A stretch of DNA of 6,395 nt from Candidatus Tectimicrobiota bacterium. GTDB lineage: Bacteria > JACPSX01. The DNA is taken from the NCBI GenBank assembly GCA_016193065.1, contig JACPSX010000048.1:1-6395 (forward strand), read 5' to 3'. Within the stretch, counting starts at the first letter, position 1, and the number at the start of each line of letters is the position of its first letter. Shown here in pieces: positions 2,410 through 6,395 of this stretch. A program made the position numbers and the translations under genes. The notes beneath the pieces were generated by a model, which saw only the letters and a list, made by a program, of their open reading frames with translations, did not search any database and was not told the DNA's origin.

Positions 2410-4239
2410 TCACCAGGGAAATCGCTTGTACCAGCTCGGGGGTTTTTCGCCGTGGCGGACCAATTCTTCACTCTCGAAGCGGTACATATCCCGCATCTTC
2501 CGCATGAGGTCTGGTCGGTCTTTGAGGGGATCTCCATCACCTGCTGACCAGAACTGGAAGTTGTTCTTGCCCTTGTCGATGCAGGTCTTGATGCAGCCGG
2601 CCACCGCATCCGCCACATCCTTACTGGCCCTGATGACCCCGCCTTCCGCCGAGGCGTAGCGGCTACCATAGTCAGGATGGTCAACCTTTCCCCGATTGGT
2701 CACAATGAGTTCTTCAAGTTCGCGGATGAGAGTCGGGTGGTAGTAGGCTTCAAGGATGCCGCGGTAGAGCAGGGATTTCAGCGTGTCGTAGGCGGAGTTG
2801 TTGCGGTCGACACTCAACTCTTCCGCGTGGGCGCCGTCTTTGCGCAGGAGCTGGATGGAGTCGGTGGACTGCCAGCCGTCAAACGTCACCTGCTGGATGG
2901 AAAACTTCAGCTCGTGTTTGATCCGCTTGATGAACTCGCGGATTTCATCGAAGATGATCTCCCCGCCCGGGGCGGCTTTGATCTGCAACACCAGGTCCAG
3001 CACCACCCCCAACTCTTTCCGTCCCACAGCGGCGCTGAGATCGTAGTTCTCGTAGCGCTTCACCGCCTCAATCAGGCTTGGGGGAAGGGTGACTGGCATA
3101 TCCCGCTTGAAATGTCCCATGGCCAGCCCACAGGCATCCCCCTTGCCGTCCTTGTCCTTGGCCAGGTCGACGTGGATGAAGTACGCCGTATTGGACTCGG
3201 GCTTGAACCAATCCTTGAACTGCACCCCACGCAGATTGATGATGCGCCAGAGGTCGCTGACGACAGGGTTCTGCCGGCTCGCTGCGTTGATCACCTCAGC
3301 AATCCGATTCTTGAACTTGATGTAACCGCCTTCCGAGGTGCTGCCCAGACATTCATACACCCGCTGCGCCCCTTCGGGATCGCGGGCGTACTCGTCCACC
3401 AAGTCTTCCTTTTTCCTGAGCTCGTTCACCTCCCACGTGGCAGCCCGAGTTCGATAGGTCTTGGATTCATAGGCCGCCTCGTCGTAGCGGATCATCATGT
3501 AGTCCGTGTCATTCCGTTTGTAGGAGAGCAAGAGCAGCTTCATATGCTGCGGAAAGCGGGAAGCACACGTGCTGCGTAGCGCAGCGTACAGTTCCCGTGC
3601 CTTGGCCGGGTCAAAGCCCGCGATCTCATCGAAGATGACAAAGAACAAGTTGAGGCCTTCGCCGGTGTACTCCTCACTATCCAGCGAATAGGCGGTGATA
3701 TGCTTGGGGAACTTAATCTCCCGCGTGAGGATGTCCTTCTTGAGGTTCAGCCCCTTTTCCTCAAACCAGTTCTTGCCCGTCTGGGGATTGGTAGTGCTTT
3801 TCACCATCTGCCTGAAGTATTTGAAGAACACCGCCTTGGCCAGGTGCGCATTGATGCACACATTCGCCACTTCAATCTTGTCCGCCAGCCGTGAGCGGTA
3901 TTCGGGCGCAACTTCCCGTTTGAAGTACGCGGCCGGGTCTTTCATACACAGGAGCTTGTAGCAGACGTAGGTGAGAATCTTCGCCGCGGTCCGGTCCTTG
4001 CCGCTGCCCTTGCCCCAGAGAGCGATCCCCTCGGTGTAGCGGGTGTCCCACTCCCGGGGATCGGTGCCCAGCATGGCGTCCACGAACGCCTGCTGGATGG
4101 GAAAGAACGGCTCCTTCATAAACGTCGAGAAGAACGTCCGTGTGTCCACAGGCTCTTCTTCCCAGACACCGTCTGATTGGACGGTTGATGGCTGGTCCAA
4201 CTGGAGAGCTTCCTCTTCACGTTTGCGTTGTTTAGCCAT
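2410..4239 (-). CDS. terL: Terminase large subunit (ATPase and nuclease)
   Basis: TerL is the motor that packages phage DNA into the empty head and cuts it. The chosen start, ATG 4239, gives 609 aa and overlaps the upstream stop by 8 nt. An in-frame ATG at 4293 is less likely because it lies deeper in the upstream gene. Walker A is GKGSGKDR (about residues 76-83). The Walker B strand is NLFFVIFDE (about 197-205), with Asp204 and Glu205 as Mg-binding and catalytic residues. LLLLSY (about 235-240) fits the coupling motif III. The RNase-H-fold nuclease half follows, with acidic residues at FIHVDLAKD (Asp358), VTFDGWQS (Asp454) and SKDVADAVAG (Asp541 or Asp544). Both domains and all key acidic residues are present and the length is normal to slightly long, so the protein should be active. 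It is embedded in a coupled gene chain. Confidence 0.95.
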   Translation of the reverse strand: MAKQRKREEEALQLDQPSTVQSDGVWEEEPVDTRTFFSTFMKEPFFPIQQAFVDAMLGTDPREWDTRYTEGIALWGKGSGKDRTAAKILTYVCYKLLCMKDPAAYFKREVAPEYRSRLADKIEVANVCINAHLAKAVFFKYFRQMVKSTTNPQTGKNWFEEKGLNLKKDILTREIKFPKHITAYSLDSEEYTGEGLNLFFVIFDEIAGFDPAKARELYAALRSTCASRFPQHMKLLLLSYKRNDTDYMMIRYDEAAYESKTYRTRAATWEVNELRKKEDLVDEYARDPEGAQRVYECLGSTSEGGYIKFKNRIAEVINAASRQNPVVSDLWRIINLRGVQFKDWFKPESNTAYFIHVDLAKDKDGKGDACGLAMGHFKRDMPVTLPPSLIEAVKRYENYDLSAAVGRKELGVVLDLVLQIKAAPGGEIIFDEIREFIKRIKHELKFSIQQVTFDGWQSTDSIQLLRKDGAHAEELSVDRNNSAYDTLKSLLYRGILEAYYHPTLIRELEELIVTNRGKVDHPDYGSRYASAEGGVIRASKDVADAVAGCIKTCIDKGKNNFQFWSAGDGDPLKDRPDLMRKMRDMYRFESEELVRHGEKPPSWYKRFPW

Positions 4240-4924: not shown

Positions 4925-5410
4925 CTATTTCGCCGACGGCCTGGCCTTCGGCTGCACACTCGCTTTGACCAGCCTCGACAACTCTTTGCGGATGAGCACC
5001 TTGAGCTGCTTTCTGGCCCGGTCAGGGTATTTGGCCGCCATGCGCTGGGAGGACAGCCCCAGGTCCCCGGCAATCTCCGGCTGGCTCCTGGCTTCCTTGC
5101 CGATGCCGTAGTATTTCTTGATGGCCAACTGCTGCATCAGGCTGAGCTTGGGCAGGCAGTTGTGCAGCGCCTGGGTGAACAGCTGCATCCTAGGACTGGG
5201 CTTCATGCGCTGGTAGTCCGCAGGCAGCCGTTCGGCCAGAAATTCCAGTTTGCGGGGGCTGACCAGAATCTCAGAGTGGGAGCGGCTACCCGACTCATCC
5301 ATCTGGGAGCGCAGGTATTTCTCCCACGCCTCCTGAAGCTGCTCGGGCGGCAGGTCATCTGGTGGACGCTGCACCTCGTCTTGTTCTCGTTTCTGATTGT
5401 CGCGTTCCAT
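4925..5410 (-). CDS. Sigma-70 region 4-like helix-turn-helix protein (161 aa)
   Basis: The first gene of the terminase operon. ATG 5410 is chosen although the frame is open back to 5494, because the extension would have to be read through a strong terminator hairpin (5480-5437). The SD (GGAC) is weak. Residues 1-60 are charged and helical (QREQ-type, then LQEAWEKYLRSQ). Residues 86-145 match sigma-70 region 4: LPKLSLMQQLAIKKYYGIG, then SQPEIAGDLGLSSQRMAAK (helix-turn-helix about 107-130), then RARKQLKVLIRKEL. In sigma factors this domain reads the -35 element. Region 2 is absent, so it is not a complete sigma factor. It may be a late-gene regulator, an anti-termination or appropriator-type factor, or the small terminase subunit, which also often has a helix-turn-helix. 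The basic tail (VQPKARPSAK) fits DNA binding. Confidence 0.8.
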   Translation of the reverse strand: MERDNQKREQDEVQRPPDDLPPEQLQEAWEKYLRSQMDESGSRSHSEILVSPRKLEFLAERLPADYQRMKPSPRMQLFTQALHNCLPKLSLMQQLAIKKYYGIGKEARSQPEIAGDLGLSSQRMAAKYPDRARKQLKVLIRKELSRLVKASVQPKARPSAK

Positions 5411-5436
5411 CGTGGATCGTCCGTGTTGCTGACCAC

Positions 5437-5480
5437 GACAAAAAGGCCGAGAGCATGACCCTTTCGGGCCACACTCTCGG
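5437..5480 (-). terminator. Strong intrinsic terminator (attenuator) before the TerL operon
   Basis: On the minus strand a 15-bp stem with no mismatches (three G-U pairs) is formed by bases 5480-5466 and 5461-5447. It is closed by a GAAA tetraloop and followed by CCTTTTTGTC. It starts about 45 nt after the predicted start site of the promoter at 5558-5530 and ends 26 nt before the first gene, so it should block the operon unless overridden. A weaker alternative pairing, ATGACC (5486-5481) with GGTCAT (5461-5456), would be exclusive with the terminator stem. Confidence 0.9.
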
Positions 5481-5529
5481 TCATTCACCGCCAAGTGCGG
5501 GCCTTACCTGTTCCTAGCTTGTCACCTCA

Positions 5530-5558
5530 AGTATACCGTCGACACCTCATGATGATAA
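5530..5558 (-). promoter_or_regulatory. Sigma-70-type promoter for the TerL operon leader
   Basis: On the minus strand TTATCA (5558-5553), a 17-nt spacer and TATACT (5535-5530) match the -35 (4/6) and -10 (5/6) consensus with ideal spacing. Transcription would start near 5523 and meet the terminator at 5480-5437 after about 45 nt. No other good promoter was found between here and TerL. Confidence 0.65.
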
Positions 5559-5581
5559 GGGCTGATTCAGGTTGTACAACA

Positions 5582-5621
5582 AACGCTCTGGTTGGCTTGA
5601 GAGCTGTCCCTCAAGAGCGTT
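5582..5621 (-). repeat. Nested inverted repeat after the zinc-ribbon gene
   Basis: Arms AACGCTCT (5582-5589) and AGAGCGTT (5614-5621) enclose a second pair, TTGAG and CTCAA. On the minus strand the structure begins 3 nt after the 46-aa gene's stop and is followed by TGTTGTAC, a poor U-tract. It may be a weak terminator or an mRNA-stabilising stem; I cannot decide. Confidence 0.5.
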
Positions 5622-5623
5622 GT

Positions 5624-5764
5624 TCAGGGGGTTTTATGTCGGGGAGGACGATCCCAGTAGGGGCTGCGGCATTTTGGACACCGAAGCGGACGGCCAGGCT
5701 TGCGGGGAAACCATCGGGCTCCGCATCGGAGACACCGCATTTCCTCGATCGTGGGCTTCGCCAT
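5624..5764 (-). CDS. Zinc-ribbon small protein (46 aa)
   Basis: A short gene found by translating the minus strand by hand. It begins MAKPTIEEMRCLRCG and carries two CxxC knuckles, Cys11/Cys14 (CLRCGARWFPRK) and Cys29/Cys32 (RCPKCRSPYWDRPPR). A CLRCG...W.PR...RP.RCP.C.SPYWD pattern is, as I recall, common in small bacterial and phage zinc-ribbon proteins, where the ribbon binds one zinc and is thought to mediate nucleic-acid or protein contacts. It lies in another frame inside the tail of the 119-aa ORF; the knuckles make this the more credible frame here. No SD is visible. The upstream promoter would start transcription about 3 nt before the ATG, so translation may be nearly leaderless, or coupled when read from the upstream promoter. 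Confidence 0.8.
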   Translation of the reverse strand: MAKPTIEEMRCLRCGARWFPRKPGRPLRCPKCRSPYWDRPPRHKTP

Positions 5765-5993
5765 TCTGCACTATGGATACCATATCTGGTATCCAGTTGT
5801 CAAGCCGAGCATGGCAGAAGCACCCACAGTAGCGGCGGACTCTCTGACGCGGATCTTCGCGGGTGATCTCCAGCCAGGGACACCGCTCACACCGCAGCAG
5901 ATAACGAACCTCCCCATTGGCCCGCTGAAACCGCTTGAGGCTCAGCTTATGCCTGAACCAGCACCGCCAGTTGGCTTCCCTCGTCTCGGTCAT
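5634..5993 (-). CDS. Zinc-finger-type small protein (119 aa; tail may be spurious)
   Basis: ATG 5993 is chosen because GAGGTG (6008-6003) lies 9 nt upstream. The frame is open back to 6101, but that part covers the promoter and operators. Residues 9-61 are convincing: WRCWFRH (Cys11, His15), a strand pair (FQRANGEVRYLLRCERCPW with Cys35 and Cys38), then YCGCFCH (Cys56, Cys58, Cys60, His61). Two zinc sites are possible. From about residue 63 the frame runs through the second promoter-operator block and the 46-aa zinc-ribbon gene, and the text (MRSPMVSPQAWPSASVSK) looks like out-of-frame shadow. Either the tail is tolerated or a base error removed an earlier stop. The gene is probably controlled by the operators around its promoter. 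The exact role is unknown. Confidence 0.65.
   Translation of the reverse strand: MTETREANWRCWFRHKLSLKRFQRANGEVRYLLRCERCPWLEITREDPRQRVRRYCGCFCHARLDNWIPDMVSIVQNGEAHDRGNAVSPMRSPMVSPQAWPSASVSKMPQPLLGSSSPT
5774..5803 (-). promoter_or_regulatory. Promoter 2 with palindromic operator
   Basis: On the minus strand TTGACA (5803-5798) is a perfect -35. TATCCA (5779-5774), preceded by TGG as an extended -10, follows after 18 nt. The spacer and -10 are occupied by a 20-bp palindrome, GGATACCA-N4-TGGTATCC (5794-5775), so a bound protein would block RNA polymerase. Transcription would start near 5767, just before the 46-aa zinc-ribbon gene. The block is a diverged copy of promoter 1 at 6046-5996. Confidence 0.7.
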
Positions 5994-5995
5994 CC

Positions 5996-6046
5996 TGGTA
6001 TCCACCTCTACATATATGGATACCATACATGGATACCATTTGTCAA
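5996..6046 (-). promoter_or_regulatory. Promoter 1 with three operator sites
   Basis: On the minus strand TTGACA (6046-6041), an 18-nt spacer and an extended TGG-TATCCA -10 (6022-6017) precede the 119-aa gene. TGGTATCCA sites lie at 6038-6030 (spacer) and 6025-6017 (overlapping the -10). The inverted form, TGGATACCA, lies at 6004-5996 between the SD and the start codon. Each 9-mer is itself a pseudo-palindrome (TGG-TAT-CCA). Sites on the -10 and beyond the start site fit repression. Confidence 0.7.
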
Positions 6047-6060
6047 GGGGCCCTGGCATG

Positions 6061-6107
6061 AAAAACAACAACCGAGAGCACAGCCCATCCCTGAGCTGCA
6101 CTCTCGG
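6061..6107 (-). terminator. Intrinsic terminator upstream of promoter 1
   Basis: On the minus strand a 12-bp stem (6107-6096 with 6083-6072, including two G-U pairs) closes a 12-nt loop and is followed by TTGTTGTTTTT. The outer arms CCGAGAG/CTCTCGG are the same as in the terminator at 5480-5437. It ends transcription coming from the tmRNA side and insulates the operator block. Confidence 0.85.
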
Positions 6108-6199
6108 TTCGTATACCGCGGAGTGCCTACTTGGCCACTAACTTCTCAGAGCCGTGAGCGATTTTCCCGACTCATGCGTTTGTGGCGTCGTTCACGTCC

Positions 6200-6274
6200 C
6201 GCTGTCGGGCGGCGTGTTCCTTGCTCTACGCGACGCTTTCCTTAGCGCCACCTTAGCTGGGAAACCCGACAGCG
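6200..6274. repeat. 10-bp inverted repeat flanking the bipartite motif
   Basis: Plus-strand arms CGCTGTCGGG (6200-6209) and CCCGACAGCG (6265-6274) are perfect inverted repeats separated by 55 bp. The GCTAAG bipartite motif (6237-6257) lies between them. The arrangement of outer inverted arms around inner direct repeats is seen at recombination and origin sites, but could also be an RNA stem. Confidence 0.55.
6237..6257 (-). repeat. Bipartite motif GCTAAG-N5-GCTAAGGAAA, copy 2
   Basis: On the minus strand GCTAAG (6257-6252) is followed 11 bp later by GCTAAGGAAA (6246-6237). This is the same architecture as the copy at 1395-1375, with four of the five spacer bases changed. It lies 35 bp beyond the tmRNA 3' end, inside an inverted repeat. 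Confidence 0.6.
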
Positions 6275-6292
6275 CGGAGCGCTTGTTGTAAG

Positions 6293-6395
6293 TGGTGGAG
6301 GCGCCGGGAGTTGCACCCGGGTCTTCGGACCGAGCGCCGTGAGCCCTCTACATGCTTAGCTTCACATCAAACCATCCACCATAGCCCGTCTGTGA
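6293..6395 (-). ncRNA. ssrA: tmRNA, 3' part (partial, runs off the right edge)
   Basis: Read on the minus strand, the last 103 nt carry the hallmarks of a tmRNA 3' end. AGCTAAGCATGTAGA matches the conserved segment after the last pseudoknot. A GGTCCGAAGA stretch follows, then a T-arm with stem CCGGG/CCCGG around the 7-nt loop TGCAACT, then the acceptor 3' strand CGCCTCC, discriminator A and an encoded CCA ending at 6293. tmRNA rescues stalled ribosomes with SmpB by acting first as alanyl-tRNA and then as a short messenger. The 5' half, the tag reading frame and most pseudoknots lie outside the window. Position 2 of the T-loop is G where U is usual. The gene may be phage-encoded or be the host ssrA bordering an integrated phage; the window does not decide. 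Confidence 0.9.

Follow-up and report, generated by a model that had tools for sequence, protein, structure and literature searches.

The window analyzed here, which is the entire 6,395-bp contig C284 of a 2.9-Mb MAG (294 contigs), carries on its minus strand a 33-bp block in two copies, which probably represent one sigma70-type promoter duplicated together with an operator embedded in it, and which the terminator T1 would shield. Read along this strand, the elements are ordered as T1, block 1, an SD together with the putative operator O1c, the ATG of znA, block 2, the ATG of znB, the promoter P3, the terminator T2, a sigma-like gene and the terminase operon (Table 1). Five exact TGGTATCCA/TGGATACCA words lie inside 265 bp of this region, two in each block and one downstream of block 1, all of them at the positions given by the first-pass annotation, whose description leaves T1, the sigma-like gene and the tmRNA gene unmentioned. 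Their local enrichment is clear: the mean count in shuffled sequences was 0.01, five copies were reached in none of 200 shuffles, and allowing one mismatch revealed no extra site in the window.

Table 1. Features of the window relevant to the two blocks, with the observation on which each rests.
Feature	Coordinates	Strand	Basis or remark
Terminase large subunit (TerL)	2410..4239	-	PHROG E 1.2e-12, 609 aa; served as bait for relatives
Sigma70-region-4-like gene, upstream of TerL	4925..5410	-	candidate regulator, conserved in relatives
Terminator T2, stem ends matching T1	5447..5480	-	-28.8 kcal/mol, z -5.9
Putative promoter P3, TTATCA-17-TATACT, no 9-mer site	5530..5558	-	sole consensus-scan promoter of the window
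ORF znB, 46 aa, two CxxC pairs, zinc-ribbon-like, ATG at 5764	5624..5764	-	Zn_ribbon_4 E 0.0011, below curated cut-off
ORF znA, 119 codons, first ~64 residues Cys/His-rich, ATG at 5993	5634..5993	-	no family match
Block 2, CTTGACAACTGGATACCAGATATGGTATCCATA, putative promoter-operator P2	5772..5804	-	repeat comparison
Putative operator O2b, TGGTATCCA, over candidate -10 TATCCA	5774..5782	-	exact word
Putative operator O2a, TGGATACCA, in spacer	5787..5795	-	exact word
P2 -35 TTGACA	5798..5803	-	exact hexamer
Putative operator O1c, TGGATACCA, just past predicted transcription start, over end of SD	5996..6004	-	exact word
znA SD, AGAGGTGG	6009-6002	-	end overlapped by O1c
Block 1, CTTGACAAATGGTATCCATGTATGGTATCCATA, putative promoter-operator P1	6015..6047	-	repeat comparison
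Putative operator O1b, TGGTATCCA, over candidate extended -10 (TGG-TATCCA)	6017..6025	-	exact word
Putative operator O1a, TGGTATCCA, in spacer	6030..6038	-	exact word
P1 -35 TTGACA	6041..6046	-	exact hexamer
Terminator T1, 18-bp stem, GTTGTTTTT tail, just upstream of block 1	6070..6109	-	-32.1 kcal/mol, z -6.6
tmRNA gene, 3' part, cut by contig end	6293..6395	-	Rfam RF00023, 34.4 bits, E 3.9e-11; below gathering score because the gene is incomplete at the contig end

The word is not equally frequent elsewhere, a possibility that the first-pass annotation had raised against its own proposal. The whole MAG contains 17 copies, of which 12 lie outside the window versus ~15 expected from composition, and all 12 are solitary, the tandem form being restricted within the MAG to this contig. 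The fetched sequences of the other MAG contigs that carry the word have no gene in common with the phage relatives of the window, except a general AAA ATPase. In viral contigs, tandem 9-mers occur in at least 120 stretches, mostly coding repeats, and among the matches listed none has the arrangement of the blocks; among the literature matches listed for the word, none concerns phage regulation. The clustering of 9-mer copies in two AT-rich islands of a contig of 58% GC would also suit a replication origin with iteron-like or DnaA-like sites. However, the copies accompany TTGACA and gene starts without regular spacing, none matches TTATNCACA even with one mismatch allowed, the DnaA-like boxes of the window are at chance level, and no replication gene was recognised in the window, so that we give very little credence to an origin.

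The presence of two homologous blocks ahead of two small Cys-rich ORFs, as initially described, is borne out by the repeat comparison. The blocks form a direct repeat with a period of exactly 243 bp and are identical at 27 of 33 positions, beyond the best values reached in dinucleotide shuffles, i.e., 24/33 in 12 shuffles of the whole window and 23/33 in 200 shuffles of positions 5001-6395. Each block opens with CTTGACAA, and the stretch TATGGTATCCATA was correctly reported as common to both. Neither of these stretches nor the TGG/CCA arms contain any of the six differences. Three of these affect the core of the first word, which reads TAT in one block and ATA in the other, a change that preserves symmetry; one lies ahead of this word, after TTGACAA, and the remaining two are in the gap before the second word.

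This symmetry determines how the sites should be compared. TGGTATCCA is a pseudo-palindrome, TGG-N3-CCA, whose TGG and CCA arms are symmetric and of which only the TAT core is directional. Both blocks contain two such elements, 13 bp apart from centre to centre. Since the word itself is pseudo-palindromic, the "direct pair" of one block and the "palindrome" of the other represent a single geometry in which one core has been turned over; the earlier proposal that the two operators differ in strength on account of this orientation therefore loses its basis. In block 2 the inverted repeat has 9-bp arms and a 4-base loop, and in block 1 the arms are 5 bp only. The one real difference in site arrangement between the blocks is the third site at block 1, O1c.

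Two readings that attribute no regulatory role to the repeat bear on the same comparison. First, the 33-bp repeats flanking znA could be sites of recombination or what is left of a tandem duplication, as their direct orientation, their exact period and the small gene between the copies would allow; yet similarity ends sharply at the promoter-like block, the flanking genes are dissimilar and the isolated third site before znA is left unexplained, which makes a recombination cassette very improbable. Second, a frame of 155 codons (6101-5634) runs through the two blocks in phase, encoding LDKWYPCMVSI and LDNWIPDMVSI, respectively, so that the repeat could be one of protein rather than of DNA. However, the three codons that differ between the copies each specify another amino acid, and no difference is synonymous; together with the preserved symmetry of TAT and ATA, this points to a constraint on the DNA and not on the encoded peptide. 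The strong terminator hairpin also overlaps the upstream end of the frame, and searches of viral, phage and genome sets returned no homologue. We regard a protein-level repeat as scarcely credible.

As promoters, the blocks combine strong and weak features. Both -35 hexamers are perfect, TTGACA occurring only three times in the whole window, and TTGACA followed by two bases and TGGNNNCCA is found nowhere else in the MAG. The candidate -10 of each block, TATCCA preceded by TG at a spacer of 18 bp, scores 1.8 bits versus 8.5 for TATACT of P3; at a 17-bp spacer the hexamer would read GTATCC, which is very poor, and the -10 is weak at every usual spacing in both blocks. TATGGT was ruled out as a normal -10, its spacer being 13 bp. 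A consensus promoter scan of the window called neither block. In the phage relatives, promoters with TTGACA and 17-18-bp spacers are present. An ATG lies shortly downstream of each block, and the SD of znA is a good one. From these motifs, we take the blocks to be weak or regulated promoters of the sigma70 type, a reading that we find half convincing.

A good -35 with a weak -10 is also what would be expected of activator-dependent promoters, at which a protein bound to the sites, or the sigma-region-4-like protein of the phage, would recruit or remodel RNA polymerase and thereby turn on the small genes at one stage of infection. The site in the spacer would suit a spacer-binding activator, and the sigma70-region-4-like protein is encoded ~0.4 kb away and conserved in relatives. 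Against this, one site covers the -10 and another lies past the start, positions that are typical of repression; the sigma-like protein is also kept in relatives that lack the blocks; and the spacer, at 18 bp, is shorter than in MerR-type promoters, which typically have 19-20 bp. We consider activation unlikely, and we infer repression from the placement of the sites.

The mechanism that we favor is thus that of a repressed promoter pair. A dimeric DNA-binding protein, encoded by the phage or by its host, would recognise (A)TGG-N3-CCA(T). With one of the paired sites in the spacer and the other over the -10, its binding would exclude RNA polymerase. The third site at P1, located 21 bp further and covering the transcription start and the ribosome-binding site, would make repression tighter. 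T1 would block transcription arriving from upstream, on the side of the tmRNA gene, and znA, perhaps also znB, would be expressed only upon release of the protein. T1 and T2 are both strong terminators, ~620 bp apart, with stem ends in common (CCGAGAGTG...GCTCTCGG). T2 lies between P3 and the sigma-like gene, in a position as for an attenuator or an antitermination target.

The reading frame of znA, uninterrupted across block 2, shares ~130 bp (5634-5764) with znB, which is in another frame. znB has no SD; if made from P2, whose predicted transcript would start ~3 bases before its ATG and be practically leaderless, it would be translated in leaderless or coupled form. A search of 386 genomes for relatives of znA returned three weak matches, of which two have broken frames, and viral contigs yielded no match. 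As neither ORF has confirmed homologues, the genes themselves are uncertain.

The 609-aa terminase large subunit marks the contig as a fragment of a tailed phage. The nearest relatives of TerL, found in IMG/VR, are 46-56% identical, and the best matches among isolates are terminases of Streptomyces phages such as LukeCage, at ~28% identity. We take LukeCage and similar Streptomyces phages to be of the BE type. Published BE1 phages possess one tmRNA gene each (PMC5764925). No tmRNA was found in the searched records of the relatives (0/9). The tmRNA of the window is clearly unlike the complete tmRNA that the MAG itself carries on C259; the contig therefore probably belongs to a phage with its own tmRNA, or is a fragment that was binned in, rather than being a simple ssrA-integrated prophage of the MAG genome.

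Conservation was assessed in eight contigs whose TerL is 46-56% identical to that of the window. The sigma-like gene is clearly similar and located before TerL in five of the eight (tblastn), and in two others, L175 and L158, a more remote homologue occupies this position. In three relatives, an AAA ATPase gene lies shortly upstream of the sigma-like gene (22-1053 in L154, 3944-5305 in L160 and 3308-4699 in L175), in the position that znA, znB and the tmRNA gene occupy in the window. In L015 (5974-8705), the terminase is interrupted by an intein-like stretch with an endonuclease, which starts with CIAGDT and has HN before the rest of the terminase. znA, znB and the blocks were not detectable in any of the eight, and the records from which their loci come, including four of 95-105 kb, do not contain the paired-site pattern. 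The available parts of the relatives contained no convincing inverted-repeat promoters of a similar kind. Nowhere in IMG/VR, nor in the GTDB contigs that were scanned, does the complete block pattern occur, and comparison with phages and plasmids returned DNA similarity at the level of chance fragments only. The conservation of the sites in related phages that the first-pass annotation had called for was thus not observed, the nearest of these relatives being only 56% identical in TerL. Because relatives this distant are not expected to have retained an operator, the missing conservation is weak evidence against a function.

Among possible regulators, the sigma70-region-4-like protein is the clearest DNA-binding candidate of the window. 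Alone, it matches an NCBIfam model at E 0.0034, below the cut-off, and has no Pfam match; three aligned relatives exceed the cut-off of Pfam Sigma70_r4 (1.1e-13 to 1.6e-7), and the profile of the family matches sigma-factor chains of the PDB at 4.5e-8. Because relatives without the blocks also have this gene, it is at most a candidate regulator. A 55-aa protein (ORF 524-691) had been put forward as a ribbon-helix-helix regulator, an assignment that finds no support here: no match was found in Pfam, PHROG or NCBIfam, and the protein aligns to the N-terminus of a larger phage protein, of 281 aa, in L154. Of the two zinc proteins that had also been named as candidates, znB is zinc-ribbon-like by a weak match and znA has no match. 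Next to the blocks there is no gene recognisable as that of a repressor, and a repressor encoded in the part of the phage not covered by the contig is no less likely than the sigma-like protein. A more ambitious proposal makes the two blocks the signature promoters of an undescribed phage regulon: either a small zinc-binding protein or the nearby sigma-like protein, which has region 4 only, would act at paired TGG-N3-CCA sites 13 bp apart to switch an early module next to the tmRNA on or off. This proposal seems to us distinctly improbable.

Three known systems help to place the proposed promoter-operator pair. First, in the OR and OL regions of lambdoid phages, each of two neighbouring promoters has two or three sites that overlap its -35 and -10; these sites are ~17 bp long and flank a divergently transcribed repressor gene. 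The putative sites of the window are likewise found in twos and threes at two nearby promoters, which are here oriented in the same direction. Second, the operators and stoperators of L5 are short words that recur along the genome of a phage, a promoter being one of the locations, and for which, as in the present case, one regulator is presumed. With GGTGGMTGTCAAG taken as their consensus, the window contains ten matches, none with fewer than 3 mismatches, and one of them is at the blocks (5994-6006, 3 mismatches). The sites of L5, a cluster A phage, are 13 bp long and asymmetric, exceed 20 copies per genome and are oriented along with transcription (PMC9283540), whereas the word described here is nearly symmetric, occurs in both orientations and is confined to 265 bp of the contig.

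Finally, the extended start-associated sequences (ESAS) of cluster K mycobacteriophages such as TM4 and Adephagia, elements without an established role, consist of SigA-like -35 and -10 hexamers 17-18 bp apart and an imperfect inverted repeat, and some are accompanied beside the start codon by a start-associated sequence (SAS); in Adephagia there are seven ESAS, their repeats measuring 15-17 bp, and the SAS at the start codon is 13 bp long, GGGATAGGAGCCC (PMC3203893, PMC11373665). Neither block contains a 15-17-bp imperfect inverted repeat of this type, and the SAS, which would be expected 3-9 bp before start codons, has with up to 2 mismatches one chance-level match in the window, at 4057, inside the terminase gene. 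Like ESAS, the present element is a repeated, intergenic phage element that combines putative sigma70-like hexamers with an inverted repeat and precedes genes mostly of unknown function; unlike ESAS, it comprises two blocks built of 9-bp words, the same word recurs before the start codon and the arms of the repeat are shorter. ESAS are the nearest described kind, which the element resembles without being a member. If its sites bind one protein, they will provide a ready-made probe for the regulator of a poorly known phage group, and the element would stand as a second, unrelated case beside the ESAS-type promoters of mycobacteriophages. Most likely, it belongs to an ordinary kind of phage control region, in which a new word serves a known device.
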